From Asanoa ferruginea (GTDB lineage: Bacteria > Actinomycetota > Actinomycetes > Mycobacteriales > Micromonosporaceae), in NCBI RefSeq assembly GCF_003387075.1, contig NZ_QUMQ01000001.1:5890001-5954000 (forward strand): a stretch of DNA of 64,000 nt. The letters are read 5' to 3'. This document shows, piece after piece, positions 39,285 through 46,368 of the stretch (within the stretch, counting starts at the first letter, position 1; each line of letters starts with the position of its first letter). Both the position numbers and the translations under genes were made by a program. Below the pieces are notes generated by a model. That model had not been told where the DNA came from. It saw only the letters and a list, made by a program, of their open reading frames with translations, and searched no databases.

Positions 39285-40163
39285 GTGAACCTCAAGATCA
39301 TGAGTCTGCTGCCGGGGTTCCGCTATTCGTCGGTCGCCGCCCCGATACCGGCCGGTGCCGAGCGGCTGGCGGTCGACGTGGCACAGCAGATCCCGCGCCG
39401 GCCTGCGGGCGTCGTGCGGCGTCGCGGTCCGGCCTACGGTGCGGGGCTCCGGTCCGAGGTGCTGATGCCGGCGGCCGAAGGGCGCTACCCACTGGTGGTC
39501 TACCTGCCCGGCGGCGGTTTCGTCCGGGCGCCGACGGCCATGGCTCGCCGGGAGCGGGCGTTCATCGCCGCCGCCGGCTACGTCGTGGCGAGCGTCGGCT
39601 ATCGCACCGTCCGCGAGGGCGCCACCTACACCGACGGCCTCGCCGACATCCGGGCCGCCGTCGACGCACTCACCAGCCGCGCGGCCGAATACCGCATCGA
39701 CGCGGACCGGATCGCGGTGTGGGGCGAGTCGGCCGGCGGCTACCTCGCCTCGATGGCCGGGCTCACCGACTCACGCCTGCGGGCCGTGGTCGACCAGTTC
39801 GGCGCCTCCGACCTGTCCCGCGTCGCCGAGGGGTTCGACGCTGGCATGCGGGCGGCCGCCGCCGACCCGCGCCACCCGATCCGCCGCTACGGCGCCGTCG
39901 CCGCCAATCCGATCGACCTCGTCGCGACGGGTGCACCGGCGTTCCTGCTCATGCACGGCGACGACGACCGTGTCATCCCGCCCGACCAGACGCTGTCGCT
40001 GCACCACGCACTGAAGGCGGCCGGGGCCGACAGCACCCACTACGTCATCACCGGAGCCGGTCACGGCCGGCTGGCCCGCAGCAGCGCGCAGACCCGGTTC
40101 TGGACCTCGTTGCCGGTCATGACGACCGTCGCCGCGTTCCTCGACCACCACCTGCGGACCTGA
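39285..40163 (+). CDS. alpha/beta hydrolase (HSL/BD-FAE-type esterase)
   Basis: A 292-aa cytosolic esterase. The oxyanion loop is LPGGGFVR (the first His of HGGG is replaced by Pro), the nucleophile motif is WGESAGGY, and the acid and His are in GDDDRVIP and GAGHGRL. It belongs with acetyl-xylan-esterase/feruloyl-esterase-like BD-FAE hydrolases. The GTG start has GGAGG 10 nt upstream and directly follows the frameshifted zinc-ribbon gene. The 3' end overlaps the convergent DNA glycosylase gene by 47 bp. Confidence 0.85.
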   Translation: MNLKIMSLLPGFRYSSVAAPIPAGAERLAVDVAQQIPRRPAGVVRRRGPAYGAGLRSEVLMPAAEGRYPLVVYLPGGGFVRAPTAMARRERAFIAAAGYVVASVGYRTVREGATYTDGLADIRAAVDALTSRAAEYRIDADRIAVWGESAGGYLASMAGLTDSRLRAVVDQFGASDLSRVAEGFDAGMRAAAADPRHPIRRYGAVAANPIDLVATGAPAFLLMHGDDDRVIPPDQTLSLHHALKAAGADSTHYVITGAGHGRLARSSAQTRFWTSLPVMTTVAAFLDHHLRT

Positions 40164-40824
40164 CCCGCTCGCTGAGCTGGCGGAGGGCCCGTTCCTTGGC
40201 GTCGGAGATCTCGCCGGCGGGGGCGAGGGATCGCCAGAGCAGCGCGGCGGCGTAGCTGCGGTAAGGCGACCAGGCTGAGGCCCGTTCGGTCACCTCTGCC
40301 GGTGACGGAGTGGAAGACAGGCGCCACCGGGTGGCGATCGCCTGTGCCAGGCCGGGGTCGCTGGCAGGCAACACGTCGGGCCGTTTGAGTTGGCGCATCA
40401 GGAACATCTGCGCCGTCCATTGGCCGATCCCGCGGCCGGCGGTGAGCAGCGCGACGACCTGGTCGTCGGTCAGGTCGGCCAGGTCTTCCAGGTCGATCCG
40501 GCCGTCGGACTGGCGGGCGGCGAGGTCGAGGACGTATCCCGCCTTCGTGGCGGACAGCCCCAGTTGGCGCAGTTCGCCGATGCCGAGTGCGGTGATGTCG
40601 GCCGCGGTCGGGATGTGACCACAGCGGGCCGCGATCCGGTCGTAGATGGTGAAGGCGGCGATCGCCGATGTGCGCTGGCCGATGATGTGGATGAGCATCG
40701 CGGCGAACCTGCTGGAGCCGGTACGACCGCCGTCGTGCCAGACGAACGGGTCTTGCGGCCCGTACTCCGCCAGCAGGTCCCGGAAGACCGCTTCGCTGGC
40801 GGAAAGGGATCGGTAGGCCCGCAT
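40117..40824 (-). CDS. AlkA-like HhH-GPD DNA glycosylase
   Basis: A 235-aa DNA-3-methyladenine glycosylase II-like enzyme that removes alkylated purines. A first helix-hairpin-helix-like stretch is LGLSATKAGYVLDLA; the diagnostic HhH is LLTAGRGIGQWTAQM (126-140) and the catalytic Asp156 follows in DVLPASDPGL. The N-terminal AlkA beta-domain is absent, making it a minimal core. Its ATG shares one base with the stop of the EAL gene (TGATG), so translation is coupled to an operon with the EAL protein and a retron-type reverse transcriptase. It may be an ordinary repair enzyme or part of that retron cassette. Confidence 0.88.
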   Translation of the reverse strand: MRAYRSLSASEAVFRDLLAEYGPQDPFVWHDGGRTGSSRFAAMLIHIIGQRTSAIAAFTIYDRIAARCGHIPTAADITALGIGELRQLGLSATKAGYVLDLAARQSDGRIDLEDLADLTDDQVVALLTAGRGIGQWTAQMFLMRQLKRPDVLPASDPGLAQAIATRWRLSSTPSPAEVTERASAWSPYRSYAAALLWRSLAPAGEISDAKERALRQLSERVRSAGGGRGTRRRSS

Positions 40825-42071
40825 CAGGCACCGGCGCCGAGTCGGCGGAGCAGAGACCGCGCCGCGGCGACCACCCGGCGGCGGTCGTGGGTCACACCGA
40901 ACTCGAACTCGTCGGGGTGGCCGGGCGCGGCCCGCGCGAACATCGCGGATGCGGTGCCGGGGCTGAGGGTCAGGGTGGCAAAGTGGCCGTCGAGGGTCCG
41001 GTCATGGTCGCGGGCTCCTCGCACGCCGGCGGCGGGTGGGTCGGGCAGTCCCGGCCCGAGCGCCCCGGTGATCACCCCGCGCCCGGCGAACCGGGCCAGC
41101 CGGGCCTGGTCGACCGCAGTCAGCAGGCGCGGGTCGGGCAGCAGCAGGAGCGACAGCGCCGGGGCGGTCAGTTCCGCGGCCCGTTCGGCGAGGTGGCGGC
41201 TCAGCGCGGTGATGTAGGCCAGGTTCGCGCGGCTGATCGACCGACCCGCGAGGGCATCGAACGGTGTGGCGAGGTCGGCGATCGGCTCCGACCTGACGTT
41301 CAAGGTGGGTGCCGGTGCCCGACGGCCGGTGGGCAGCGGTCCCGGTCGTCCCAGGTAGCGGCCCTGTGCGAGGGTGGCTCCGGCGGAGCGGGCAAACTCG
41401 GCGTCGGCCGCCGTCTCGACGCCCTCGGCCAGGATCGTCGCGCCGGTGCGCTCGGCTTCCTCGTACGCGATATCCATGATCTGCATGACCATCGGTGTGG
41501 GTCCGCCCTGGGTGACGTATTGGTCCAGCTTGATCACGTCGGCCGCGAGGATGGGCAGCATCGACAGGGCGGAGGGGTTCGCGCCGAGATCGTCGATCGC
41601 GAGTCCGGTGACGTCGGGTCGCTGGTGATCGATCCCGGCGAGCAGGGAACGCGGGTCGCGCTCCAACGACCGCTCGGTCACCTCCAGCACCACCTGAAAC
41701 CGGGCGAAGGCCTCCTCGATGTCGGGCCACAGGTCGGGCGGGCAGTCGGAGCCGAGCGCCAGCGGCTCGATGTTGAGAAACAAGAGCTGGTCATAGGGGA
41801 GGTTGGCGGCCATCGCGGCGCGGCACGCGGCGGCGCGGGCCGCCCAGTCGAACTCGACGACCAGGTCGCTCCGGTAGGCGTGCCGCAGCAGCGTCGTGGC
41901 GTCGGTGAACGGCGAGCCGGCGGGCCCGCGGACCAGCGCCTCATAACCGACCGTGGTGTGGCTGGCCAGATGCACGATCGGCTGAAAAACGCTTTCGAGA
42001 CGCCGAGCTCGAAGGATCCGCGCGAACTCGTCGTCACGGTCGTCATCGGTGCTCGGTGACACATTTGTCAC
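40824..42071 (-). CDS. EAL-domain protein, predicted active c-di-GMP phosphodiesterase
   Basis: A 415-aa cytosolic protein. The EAL domain (about 18-255) keeps every residue used for metal binding and catalysis: Glu44 of EAL, Asn100, Glu130, Asp160-Asp161 (AIDDLG), Lys181, Glu216 (AEGVE) and Gln236, so c-di-GMP hydrolysis is predicted. The C-terminal ~150 residues (SISRANLAYITALSRHLAER, later PGHPDEFEFGVTHDRR) resemble the DICT sensory domain that accompanies some EAL proteins. There is no membrane segment. The GTG start overlaps the reverse transcriptase stop by 4 bp and no separate ribosome site is seen, so it is translationally coupled to that gene. Confidence 0.87.
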   Translation of the reverse strand: MTNVSPSTDDDRDDEFARILRARRLESVFQPIVHLASHTTVGYEALVRGPAGSPFTDATTLLRHAYRSDLVVEFDWAARAAACRAAMAANLPYDQLLFLNIEPLALGSDCPPDLWPDIEEAFARFQVVLEVTERSLERDPRSLLAGIDHQRPDVTGLAIDDLGANPSALSMLPILAADVIKLDQYVTQGGPTPMVMQIMDIAYEEAERTGATILAEGVETAADAEFARSAGATLAQGRYLGRPGPLPTGRRAPAPTLNVRSEPIADLATPFDALAGRSISRANLAYITALSRHLAERAAELTAPALSLLLLPDPRLLTAVDQARLARFAGRGVITGALGPGLPDPPAAGVRGARDHDRTLDGHFATLTLSPGTASAMFARAAPGHPDEFEFGVTHDRRRVVAAARSLLRRLGAGA

Positions 42072-43402
42072 ATATCAACGATATCCCGTTGGTGCGGGTG
42101 GGCGGGGTTCGCCGCAGTGGCGAGTGCCGCGTCAAGGAGGCTGGCCAGCTTGGCTGCCCGGTGCGGGCTCGCGCGTCCGACCCAGGCGACGCGGCCCGCG
42201 AGGTGCTCCGCGAACGCCGGGTGGCCGCCCCGGTTCTGTGCGGCGAGGCCGGTGCGGGCGGCGTTGTGCAGGATGGCGCGCAGCCGATCGTATTCGTCGC
42301 GAGGCACGGCTGGCCGTTCGTTGACCACGAGGCCGGCGAGCAGTTGCCGGTCGCCGCGTCCGCGTATCCGGGTCTTGGTGGGGTGCACGCGAAACCCCTC
42401 GTCGCGAACGACATCGGCCACGGCGACGAGCAGGTCATCGAGCCGCTGCCCCGAAATGCCGCCGGAGAAGGCGAGGTCGTCGGCGTACCTGCGGTAGCTC
42501 ACGCCGAAGGCGCCGGCCAGTCCGGTGAGGCGGCGGTCCAGCCGGAACGCGCACAGGTTGGCCAGGACCGGCGAGGTGGGTGCGCCCTGCGGTAGGTGGC
42601 CCGCGCGCAGCGCCGCGATTCGCGCGGGTCTTTCGATGAGGTGCGGTGGCGCCATCCGTAGGACGTTGGCCGGCGTGCGGATCGTGCAGATCCCGGTCAG
42701 GGCGTGCGCGACCGGCTCGGGGTAACCGGCGGTGCGCAGCAGACCGTAGACGCGTGCGGCGGTGACCGTGGCGAAGAACGCCAACAGGTCGACGCGTACG
42801 ACGATCGGCTGTCCAGAGTGGGCTGTCGCGAAGGTCGATGCCGAACGGGACGGCACGAACCCATGTGCGGCGTCGTGGACCGGAATGCGGCCGAAGACGT
42901 CGGTGAGCAGGCGTCGCTGCAGGTCGCGCAGTCGGGGTTTGGGCGCCTCGATGAGCCGCGTGCCGGCCCATCGATACCGGTAGTGGTGGAGGCGTGGGTC
43001 GGCCGCCCGCCGGTTCATCGCCCGCCGGTCGGCGTACCAGTCGAGGTGTTCGATGCTCAACCCGAGCTGGGCGGCCAGGTCGCCGAGGTGGTCGAGCACG
43101 GGGGTGTGCCAGCGGTGGGTGATCGTCCGGGTCGCGACCACCTGGCGCGAGCTTATGAGGATCGGGCGACGGACCGCTTCGCGCAGCGGCTCCAGGCCCG
43201 CGACGAACGCCGCCAGCTCACGGGGACGGTCACTCGGCCGACGCGGATAGGCGGTGAGCACGGCGTCGGCGACCGGCACCAGCCAGCGCCGGCGCACCCC
43301 AAGGACCAACCCACCACGATCGGCCAGCGCCGGGCGGCGCCATTCGCCGTCGGCGAGAAAGGCGTCGGCCAGAGCCACCGCGAGGCTGCGGGCGCTGGTC
43401 AC
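42068..43402 (-). CDS. retron-type reverse transcriptase
   Basis: A 444-aa RNA-directed DNA polymerase of the retron class. Landmarks are WYADRRAMNRR, HYRYRW, IEAPKPRLRDLQRRLL, AHGFVPSRS (179-187), the catalytic Asp205 in VVRVDLLAFF, LPQGAPTSPVLANL (270-283), YADD at 306-309, VHPTKTRI and LAGLVVN, then a thumb with RLRAILHN and LAGRVAWVGR. A ~115-residue N-terminal extension is present, as in longer retron RTs. The GTG at 43402 directly follows the a2 arm of a candidate msr-msd RNA. The stop overlaps the EAL gene start. In retrons the enzyme primes on the 2'-OH of a branch G to make msDNA. Confidence 0.9.
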   Translation of the reverse strand: MTSARSLAVALADAFLADGEWRRPALADRGGLVLGVRRRWLVPVADAVLTAYPRRPSDRPRELAAFVAGLEPLREAVRRPILISSRQVVATRTITHRWHTPVLDHLGDLAAQLGLSIEHLDWYADRRAMNRRAADPRLHHYRYRWAGTRLIEAPKPRLRDLQRRLLTDVFGRIPVHDAAHGFVPSRSASTFATAHSGQPIVVRVDLLAFFATVTAARVYGLLRTAGYPEPVAHALTGICTIRTPANVLRMAPPHLIERPARIAALRAGHLPQGAPTSPVLANLCAFRLDRRLTGLAGAFGVSYRRYADDLAFSGGISGQRLDDLLVAVADVVRDEGFRVHPTKTRIRGRGDRQLLAGLVVNERPAVPRDEYDRLRAILHNAARTGLAAQNRGGHPAFAEHLAGRVAWVGRASPHRAAKLASLLDAALATAANPAHPHQRDIVDM

Positions 43403-43575
43403 GGCGGCGTGCCCCGACGATGCCCGGTCGTGCGGGTGCAGAGGTTCGCGAAGCGTGCCCGCGCACCTGCGGTGTGGTGCTCAGGTAGACAACACGCCCC
43501 CGGGGTTGCCCCGGAGAGACCATCGCCCCGCCTCCAGCGGAGACGCGGCACGGTCAGCTCGGGACACGCCGCCAT
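43403..43575 (-). ncRNA. candidate retron msr-msd RNA
   Basis: On the minus strand, a 15-nt arm GGCGGCGTGTCCCGA (a1, 43573-43559) pairs with TCGGGGCACGCCGCC (a2, 43417-43403) through 14 Watson-Crick pairs and one G-U pair. The arms enclose 141 nt and end exactly at the RT start codon. The A ending a1 is followed by GC, giving the AGC context of a retron branch guanosine, predicted at 43558. Inside are an msr-like hairpin CGTCTCC/GGAGGCG, a strong hairpin CTCCGGGG-caa-CCCCGGGG, and an msd-like stem GCGTG..TACCTG/CAGGTG..CACGC. The a1-msr-msd-a2-RT order is the known retron layout. Confidence 0.7.
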
Positions 43576-43584
43576 TTGTGCATC

Positions 43585-46368
43585 CTAGGCGTGGCGGAGG
43601 GCCAACTGGGAAAGCTCGAGGCGGTTGGTCGCGCCGGTCTTGGCGAGCATGTGGGAGACGTGGGCGCTGACCGTCTTCTCGCTGATCACCAGGGTGCGGG
43701 CGATCTCGGCATAGGTGCGGCCGGCGACGATGTGGGTCAGGATTTCGCTCTCCCGGTCGGTCAGTCCCCAGCGGGGAGGCGTGCGGACCGGTTCCGCCGC
43801 TACCTCGGTCAGGGAGATCCGGGCCGTGGTCGCCAGCGCCGCGACCTCCGTCGCCAGTGGAGAGCCGAGGTCGGTCGAGAGTTGGTGGGCGCGCCGCACC
43901 GCGCTGGCGGCCTCGTCGCGGTGGCCGCCACCAGCCAGCAGCGTCTGCCCGACCCGCCAGGCCGCGTACGCCTCCTCCCACGGCAACGACGCGGTGTGGC
44001 AGGCCCGGTGGGCTCGGCGCCAGGCGTCCGCCGCCGCCGGCGTGCGGTGGGCCCGCTCGACCTCGGCGTCGTACAACGCCCGCAGGGCCTCGGCTACCAA
44101 CGGGTAGCGAGCGCCCGGCACTTCCGGCACGGCCGGGACGGTGGGGTAGCGGCGGCGCAGGTCGGCGAGCGCGGCCCGGGCCGGTTCCGGGTCCGCGTCG
44201 CGGATCTGGTCGGCGAGGACCCGGGCGACCGGTGGGAGGACCCGCTCATACATTTCCTGTAGGCGCTCGGACAGGGCGCGGTCGGCGGCCGCGATGGCCG
44301 CTGCGGCGTCGCCGGCGGCGCCGGCAATCTCGACGCGGACCAGGTCGAACGGTTGTGTGCGGAAGCCCGAGCCGTCGGTGAGCTCCTCGGCCCGGGCCAG
44401 GTGCCCGCGTGCCTCGGCGGTCCGTCCCTGCCGCACCGCCAGCAGCGCGGCGACCAGACGGGCGTGCGCGTTGGCGAACGGGCCCGGGTTGGCCGCGAAC
44501 ACCTCGCGCAGGCGCTCCGCGCAGGCCTGTGGATCGCCCCGCAGCAAGAGGCCGAACGCCTCGAGGGCACATTCCATCGCCGCGTAGTTGTGCGGCATCC
44601 CCAGCGCCGTCATCTCGGCCCGGCATTCGGCGTGATAGTCGATCACCGCCTGGTCGTCGATGTCGCCGAGGGTGCCCGCGACCCACGCTCCGGCCGACTT
44701 GTAGGCCCAGAACTCGCCGATGCCCGCCGCGACGGTCTGTGCCTGCCGCCCGCGGTCCGCCGCCGTGGGGTCGTCGGCGATGCAGCGGGCGATCGTGTCG
44801 GCGGTCAGCGCGTAGGCGAGCGCCCGCGCCGAGCCGCTCGCCTCCGCCAGCTCGACCGCCGCACGCGCCCGCGCCGCGCCGTCGGGTAGCGAGCGGAACA
44901 GCTCGGCGTGGGCCAGCGCCGCGGTGGCCAGCGCGCGTTCCGGACTGTCCGGGTGGTCCACCGTCAGCTCCAGCGCCTCGCGGGCCAGGCCGACGTCGGC
45001 GAACGAGCCGCCGGTGGTGTGCAGCAGGCGCATCCGGCGGACCAGCAGGTCGGCGGCGGCCAGCGGGGCCTGGCGCCGGTCGACGAGGCCGATCATCTCC
45101 TCGACCGCGCGCAACTCCCGTGACTGGTCGCCGGCGCGGTCGGCCGCGACGCGCACCCGGTCCAGCAAGTCGAGGCGGGACAGCGCGGCGGCCGGCACGG
45201 CAGGCAACAGGAACAGGGCACGATCCAGCAGGCGTACGGCCTCGGCCGCGCCGCCCTCCCGCTGTGCCGCCTCGGCGCCGCGCAGCGCCCACGCGTAGGC
45301 CTGCCCGACATCGCCGCACCGGTGGTAGTGGTCGGCCACGGCGACCGTGCCGGCGACGTCGGTGACCCGGCCCGACAGGATGGCGGCGAACGCCGTGTGC
45401 GCCGAGTGCCGTTCCTCGGGCAGCAGCGTCGCCTCGAGCACCTCGGCCAGCAGCGGGTGCACGAACCAGTAACGATCGTCGGTCACCTCCAGGACCCGGG
45501 CGTCGACCGCCGCACGCAACGCCGGCAGCACCGGGCCGCCGACCGCCTCGGCGAGCAGGGCAGCCGTGACCGGTCGGCCCGCGACCGCGACGAACACGCT
45601 GACCCGGCGGTCCGCCGGGGCGAGACCGTGCCACGCCCGCGTCACGGCGCCGCGCAGGCCATCGGGCAGGCCGGGCGGCAGCGCACCGGCGTCCGGGTCG
45701 AGACCGCGGGCCAGCAGGGCGGTCAGATAAGGGTTGCCGCGGGTACGCGCGAACACCTCGTCGACCACCGATTCGCGCGGCGGCCGCCCGAAGAGGGCGG
45801 TGAGCTGATCGGCGGTCCCGGCCCGGTCCAGCCGAGCCACGGGGAGTTCCCCGAACTCGGGGAACCGGCGGACGTCGGCCAGCCACCGATGTAGGGGATG
45901 CCCGTCGGCGAGGTCGTCGGTCCGCAGCGTGGCCAGCACGGCGAGCCGGCGGCGCGGCGCCATCGCGAGCACGAATGTGAGCACTTCGAGCGTGCTGCCG
46001 TCGGCCCAGTGCAGGTCGTCGACGACCAGCAGCAGGGGCCGTTCCCGGCAGGCGTCGTCGAGCCACCGGTCGAAGGTCAACGGCTGGAAATCGGGCGGGC
46101 CGCCGGCGGGCCAGTCCCGCAGCGCCGACAGCAATGGCAGGAACGGCGTGGCGAGCGAGGTCAGCGGCAGGCACGGCGCCCACAGCACGCCGAACTCGCC
46201 CGCCACCCGACTACGGAGGTCACGGGCGAGCGCGGTCTTACCGACGCCAGCCTCGCCGGCGACCAGCAGGAAACCCGGGCGCCCGGCGGCAGCCCGCGCG
46301 GTCAGGTCGAGCAGCGCGTGCGATTCCGCGGCCCGGCCGACCAGGAGGTCGCCGCCGGCGGCAGCCAT
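43585..46368 (-). CDS. large LuxR-family ATP-binding regulator (LAL/MalT-like)
   Basis: A 927-aa regulator. The N-terminal AAA/NACHT-like ATPase has Walker A AGEAGVGKTAL (about 37-47) and Walker B LLLVVDDLHWAD (about 112-123). A long helical TPR-like middle probably senses a ligand. The C-terminal LuxR helix-turn-helix is WGLTDRESEILTHIVAGRTYAEIA plus ISEKTVSAHVSHMLAKTGATNR. LAL proteins typically activate carbohydrate or antibiotic genes. It is upstream of the retron operon on the same strand, and its stop is only about 10 bp before the retron RNA, so read-through into the retron is possible. It is divergent from the small secreted protein at 46514. Confidence 0.9.
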   Translation of the reverse strand: MAAAGGDLLVGRAAESHALLDLTARAAAGRPGFLLVAGEAGVGKTALARDLRSRVAGEFGVLWAPCLPLTSLATPFLPLLSALRDWPAGGPPDFQPLTFDRWLDDACRERPLLLVVDDLHWADGSTLEVLTFVLAMAPRRRLAVLATLRTDDLADGHPLHRWLADVRRFPEFGELPVARLDRAGTADQLTALFGRPPRESVVDEVFARTRGNPYLTALLARGLDPDAGALPPGLPDGLRGAVTRAWHGLAPADRRVSVFVAVAGRPVTAALLAEAVGGPVLPALRAAVDARVLEVTDDRYWFVHPLLAEVLEATLLPEERHSAHTAFAAILSGRVTDVAGTVAVADHYHRCGDVGQAYAWALRGAEAAQREGGAAEAVRLLDRALFLLPAVPAAALSRLDLLDRVRVAADRAGDQSRELRAVEEMIGLVDRRQAPLAAADLLVRRMRLLHTTGGSFADVGLAREALELTVDHPDSPERALATAALAHAELFRSLPDGAARARAAVELAEASGSARALAYALTADTIARCIADDPTAADRGRQAQTVAAGIGEFWAYKSAGAWVAGTLGDIDDQAVIDYHAECRAEMTALGMPHNYAAMECALEAFGLLLRGDPQACAERLREVFAANPGPFANAHARLVAALLAVRQGRTAEARGHLARAEELTDGSGFRTQPFDLVRVEIAGAAGDAAAAIAAADRALSERLQEMYERVLPPVARVLADQIRDADPEPARAALADLRRRYPTVPAVPEVPGARYPLVAEALRALYDAEVERAHRTPAAADAWRRAHRACHTASLPWEEAYAAWRVGQTLLAGGGHRDEAASAVRRAHQLSTDLGSPLATEVAALATTARISLTEVAAEPVRTPPRWGLTDRESEILTHIVAGRTYAEIARTLVISEKTVSAHVSHMLAKTGATNRLELSQLALRHA

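Follow-up and report, generated by a model that had tools for sequence, protein, structure and literature searches.

The usual description of a retron is of a system with three parts, in which an effector gene sits next to the reverse transcriptase (RT). In Asanoa ferruginea, genes for an RT, an EAL phosphodiesterase and an AlkA-like glycosylase overlap one after another on the minus strand, and the question is whether this arrangement is a working operon of a new retron type, as a first-pass annotation proposed, or an accident of position. The window, meaning the whole 64,000-nucleotide stretch of DNA that was analysed, covers positions 5,890,001-5,954,000 of the 9.07-Mb single-contig genome. 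Our analysis indicates that the feature is very probably a two-part retron (noncoding RNA and RT) of an actinobacterial family without a fixed partner gene, with EAL and AlkA as accidental neighbours.

Gene layout and origin of the overlaps

The coding region contains the following features:

42068-43402, minus strand: RT gene, 444 aa, with YADD at residues 306-309
43118-43402, minus strand: conserved, five-helix N-terminal helical domain of the RT (residues 1-95)
40824-42071, minus strand: EAL phosphodiesterase gene, 415 aa, probable accidental neighbour; orthologues in 4 of 5 congeners
40117-40824, minus strand: AlkA-like HhH-GPD glycosylase gene, 235 aa, probable accidental neighbour; relatives (E≤1e-40, 44-48% identity) in 2 of 299 other family genomes
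42078-42083, minus strand: TATCGT, the presumed EAL -10 box, within the 3' end of RT; TAYYGT-N6-GTG in 5/5 (window and four orthologues)

The RT stop codon TGA (42070-42068) and the EAL start codon GTG (42071-42069) lie in a 4-nt overlap, and base 40824 is common to the EAL stop and the AlkA ATG. Domain matches are RVT_1 for the RT (1.1e-15), EAL (1.1e-27) and HhH-GPD (8.7e-12), and EAL Glu44 and AlkA Asp156 align with the same residues of the best-matching solved proteins. The layout first annotated is correct in its coordinates, strands, domains and overlaps, and the catalytic residues named there (RT YADD, EAL Glu44 and AlkA Asp156) are present.

If RT, EAL and AlkA were a functional operon, the new retron type would have c-di-GMP cleavage or base excision as its output, and the gapless overlaps, the retained catalytic residues of EAL and AlkA, and possible co-transcription from the retron promoter all fit such an arrangement. 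We consider it highly improbable. Adjacency was searched for in 122 loci, of which 120 hold the RT, sampled as longer stretches for 40 loci together with the best 80 (by profile) of 548 confirmed loci from named genomes, two sets that share genomes. Neither EAL nor AlkA adjoins the RT in any of the 120 RT loci (RT-EAL or RT-EAL-AlkA, 0/120), so the proposal that they are retron effectors finds no support; close RT homologues have other neighbours. The association is confined to one genome and absent in congeners, which counts against a new type; in A. iriomotensis, RT and EAL are both present on different contigs. EAL also has its own conserved -10 box, and AlkA is nearly private to this genome.

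All five other genomes examined from the genus have EAL relatives, four of which (75-79% identity) were taken as orthologues. These four have no RT or AlkA beside them and no AlkA within their 17-kb stretches, and their surroundings are of three kinds, one of them common to L123 and L124 and none resembling that of the window. Alignment of the EAL starts reveals a common leader from TA[TC][CT]GT-N6-GTG onwards, with DNA before it that differs between contexts; the box is absent in a relative of 50% identity. Its position exactly 6 nt before the GTG suggests a -10 element spaced for a leaderless mRNA. The earlier remark that EAL has no separate ribosome site fits the sequence but misleads, since such a TAnnnT box points to a transcript that needs no leader. 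The RT and EAL genes overlap because the RT frame runs into the EAL promoter and the EAL start region makes the RT's TGA; it is most probably an accident of the junction, with read-through transcription from RT into EAL possible in this strain.

The EAL start region (42056-42071) also contains an inverted repeat, GTGACA-AATG-TGTCAC, which the four orthologues keep apart from one to a few changes and which may be an operator over the start codon. The C-terminal part of EAL (residues about 250-415; 40827-41324, minus strand) has no Pfam match, yet lies within the full-length orthologue match. For AlkA, no relative above 36% identity was found in the genus, and its two relatives in other family genomes have no EAL within the short flanking stretches examined. 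The first-pass annotation named two observations that would speak against it. The first, close RT homologues with other neighbours, is seen, and EAL occurs in four congeners with no RT beside it; the second, a widely conserved EAL-AlkA pair, was not found in these comparisons.

Structure and conservation of the msr-msd RNA

An msr-msd RNA (43571-43405), which falls inside the span of the first-pass annotation and was overlooked there, precedes the RT gene. Its parts, with the presumed promoter, are as follows:

43405-43571, minus strand: retron msr-msd ncRNA, 167 nt, just upstream of RT; identified by conservation, structure and covariance model R1
43559-43571, minus strand: a1 arm of the a1/a2 duplex, pairing with 43405-43417, with changes on both sides in each of the 13 pairs
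43405-43417, minus strand: a2 arm, forming the 13-bp covarying duplex with a1
43558, minus strand: guanosine within AGC, immediately following a1 and predicted by analogy with known retrons to be the branch point
43518-43555, minus strand: msr hairpin 1, variable in length (helix 2, added by eye; RNAalifold did not predict it)
43498-43516, minus strand: msr hairpin 2 (CUCCGGGG-loop-CCCCGGGG; helix 3, with covariation)
43418-43497, minus strand: approximate msd, template of the predicted msDNA, placed between the msr hairpins and a2, with covariation in helices 4 and 5; extent inferred
43582-43587, minus strand: -10 box TAGGAT of the presumed retron promoter, overlapping the stop codon of an upstream LuxR-type AAA gene

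In an alignment of 16 upstream regions, about 185 nt directly before RT are conserved and the DNA further up mostly differs; the conserved block begins after the TA-box and carries GCGUGUCCCGA close to the beginning and UCGGGRCACGC close to the end. When the window is compared with A. iriomotensis, DNA similarity is confined to positions -186 to +1279 relative to the RT start, and this limit in two Asanoa species marks promoter, ncRNA and RT as the unit. Both ncRNA arms were found by pattern in 38 of 41 loci; in the remaining three the ncRNA was picked up by the covariance model, at about 700 bp from RT in two cases. The consensus runs from the a1/a2 duplex through a free G after a1, the msr hairpins, the msd hairpin and a2 to the RT, which is the familiar retron layout, and the fold has a z-score of -4.0.

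Model R1 was built from 38 Micromonosporaceae sequences and scores 153 bits (E 1.1e-24) on the window ncRNA, itself one of the 38 seeds. R1 matches upstream of RT on the same strand in 78 of the 80 best named loci; the independent part of this test is 41 of 43 loci outside Micromonosporaceae, where matched hosts include Nocardioides, Arthrobacter, Microbacterium, Agreia and Acidimicrobiia. The two exceptions are L219, matched on the opposite strand only, and L226, which begins inside RT. Across 77 distinct sequences, 25 of 33 pairs change on both sides and 96.4% of cells pair, a count that leans towards the R1 structure because the alignment was fitted to R1; RNAalifold gives the same a1/a2 duplex on an unfitted alignment. 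None of 500 shuffles reaches the observed covariation (score 0.422 vs 0.142 shuffled and 0.05-0.08 slid), and sliding the alignment by 1-3 columns lowers pairing to 40-51%.

In 78 of 79 sequences the base immediately after a1 is a G, by analogy with known retrons the probable priming G; AG is found in 73/79 and AGC in 41/79, the window among the latter. A retron review (PMC6868368) places the branch G within AGC. TAnnnT occurs in a 17-position slot upstream of the ncRNA in 78/78 named loci, against a background of 1.6% at random places in the same loci.

The window's own genome has a single R1 match at E≤0.01, and when stricter filters were applied to 198 genomes sampled from the phylum, no further match appeared, so either the ncRNA family is sparse or R1 misses distant members there. 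Among 38 chosen family genomes 13 match R1, 12 of which carry this RT (2 as fragments only); the thirteenth, G008, has a weak match and lacks this RT. No R1 match was found in the four RT-less congeners, and no ncRNA match in G143, G122 and G224, which hold fragments of this RT. Weak matches (38-46 bits) at G008:C20:332815-332950 and G205:C1:3304169-3304594, with no family RT matched there, are possibly solo or diverged msr-msd copies, or chance. In L068 (G189) and L071 (G183), the ncRNA lies about 700 bp upstream of RT and does not adjoin it, which suggests that RNA and RT can act apart. Rfam 15 contains no matching family for the window ncRNA at gathering threshold, and the RNA may already be described in the retron classification or census literature.

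The reverse transcriptase family and its neighbours

The best matches of the window RT are the PADLOC profiles RT_other and RT_outgroup (PDLC02949 and PDLC03740; residues 3-431 and 6-425). With these retron RT profiles and the accompanying ncRNA, the original identification of a retron RT holds. The locus combines a retron-family RT with an intact active site, an upstream ncRNA with a1/a2 repeats, and a G after a1. Y306, A307, D308 and D309 are invariant in 41 RT sequences. Retron-specific RT motifs are NAxxH and VTG, and at these places the window RT, judged on its own sequence, has FATAH (191-195) and LAG (355-357). The N-terminal domain has no Pfam match and no confident PDB fold match, and the RT has no second Pfam domain.

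The best typed profile is RT_XIII (1.1e-89), and a type XIII or other typed retron with its effector lost or unlinked would explain a missing partner; RT_other (1.8e-168) and RT_outgroup score far higher, however, and match all 41 family members scanned and 39/39 N-terminal pieces, whereas RT_XIII matches the N-terminal domain of 0/39 members at E≤0.1. Assignment to type XIII by profile was rejected on these scores, and we regard this origin as unlikely. The PADLOC profiles are protein models, and the library rows consulted name no effector for them; the present analysis adds the ncRNA, the promoter and the missing partner.

Nor did the neighbours reveal a recurrent effector among the loci examined. 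Flanks of up to 1.5 kb around 29 RT relatives contain no EAL and no AlkA; a remote EAL was found in two RT loci, about 4 and 8 kb away, and AlkA in none. Of 74 loci, 34 have their first called downstream gene on the same strand as RT (within 50 nt in 7), none of these same-strand genes is called as overlapping RT, and no Pfam family occurs in more than 3 of the 74 downstream genes. Besides RT, the commonest neighbour family reaches at most 12/41 or 14/80 loci, at scattered offsets. Recurrent neighbours include a sigma-like family (9/41 loci) and an ABC-type family (12/41; labels by eye), which form a collinear block upstream of RT in five Micromonospora; one Actinoplanes has it roughly 2 kb downstream. 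Neighbour blocks are shared chiefly by loci of one genus (eight Nocardioides, six Dactylosporangium, five Micromonospora). Because its training set consisted of high-GC loci, the gene caller under-calls neighbours in lower-GC hosts; even the RT was called in only 65 of the 80 named loci. A tripartite defence retron was rejected on finding no conserved adjacent or fused effector in the loci examined, with neighbours under-called in low-GC hosts.

Matches to the RT (E≤1e-20) occur in 63 of 300 family genomes, 5 only at 32-33% identity and 5 only as fragments. This patchy distribution, together with variable insertion sites, would fit a selfish or decaying element without host function, carried by islands, and three Micromonospora loci lie between an intact and a truncated tRNA-Arg(CCT), as is typical of integrated islands. 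Against this, the RT is under purifying selection (dN/dS 0.13-0.36 in 13 pairs), the RNA structure is kept across several actinobacterial families, and an RT tree built by a quick method, with poor support for 26 of its 78 inner branches, groups largely by host genus, with 21 changes for 21 labels and with Arthrobacter and Actinoplanes scattered. A selfish element could likewise show all three properties; on balance we judge a lack of host function quite unlikely.

A truncated 5' half of tRNA-Arg(CCT) is found in four Micromonospora loci (L036, L037, L040 and L041), about +1511 to +1659 after the RT start. In L037, L040 and L041, the stretch is repeated 3-8 kb away on the opposite side of RT, and this second copy holds the intact tRNA-Arg(CCT), with an integrase-like fragment (by eye) near it in L037 and L040. 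With the RT unit between the two copies, the retron resembles cargo carried at the margin of tRNA-integrated islands. Additional RT copies, or ones that are split or fragmentary, were seen in G290, G115, G110, G143, G122 and G224, and G290 has a full-length unit and a split unit that retains the ncRNA. By record title, two family retron units are outside Actinomycetota, L202 (Sporosarcina) and L225 (a Myxococcales MAG), possibly through transfer, binning error or contamination.

Possible function and significance

For the two-part retron favoured here, the RNA structure, promoter position, RT family and missing fixed partner (in the loci examined) were computed, and the steps of priming, msDNA synthesis and sensing are modelled on known retrons. 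Transcription would begin at the TAnnnT promoter just before the ncRNA, and a1 would pair with a2, leaving guanosine 43558 unpaired beside the template start. By analogy, the RT would prime from the 2'-OH of this branch guanosine and copy the msd into branched msDNA, which would remain complexed with the RT, the complex acting as a sensor. The retron would have landed by chance immediately before an EAL gene already in place, the promoter of which is retained within the RT end, with AlkA as a further strain-specific gene after EAL.

Myxobacterial retrons, the nearest analogy, are not known to have an effector. PMC6868368 mentions putative actinobacterial retrons and describes myxobacterial retrons with N-terminally extended RTs and vertical (lineage-bound) inheritance; Mx162, Mx65 and Sa163 are likened to the present family by description only, through these two properties, and one hit of the family, L225, is titled a Myxococcales MAG. 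A fused Toprim domain is described for Retron Eco2 (Ec67) and a separate effector for Ec86; neither was found at the window retron. According to PMC12548924, the co-located HipA/DUF3037 genes of Retron-Sda1 defend without RT or ncRNA, and Retron-Bth1 has no apparent effector gene; these are two single retrons, whereas here a whole family is without a partner in the loci examined.

By analogy with other retrons, our tentative first choice for function is a phage-sensing retron whose partner may be encoded elsewhere or contacted via the N-terminal helical domain. A self-contained RT/msDNA effector is a somewhat weaker possibility, and a function other than defence seems doubtful. Likewise possible, and put forward with reserve, is an effectorless two-part lineage in several actinobacterial families, with output by the RT N-terminal domain, the msDNA or a recruited host housekeeping protein.

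The locus carries a caution: when genes overlap tightly in a single genome, this should not be taken as evidence for a defence operon. What merits further work is the apparently effectorless family of ncRNA and RT. Its msr-msd model may also be of practical use, as compact high-GC retrons could suit actinobacterial genome editing. With strong covariation in its RNA and purifying selection on its RT, a family of RNA and RT only (80 of 548 relatives examined) opens the function of effectorless retrons to direct testing in laboratory actinomycetes.
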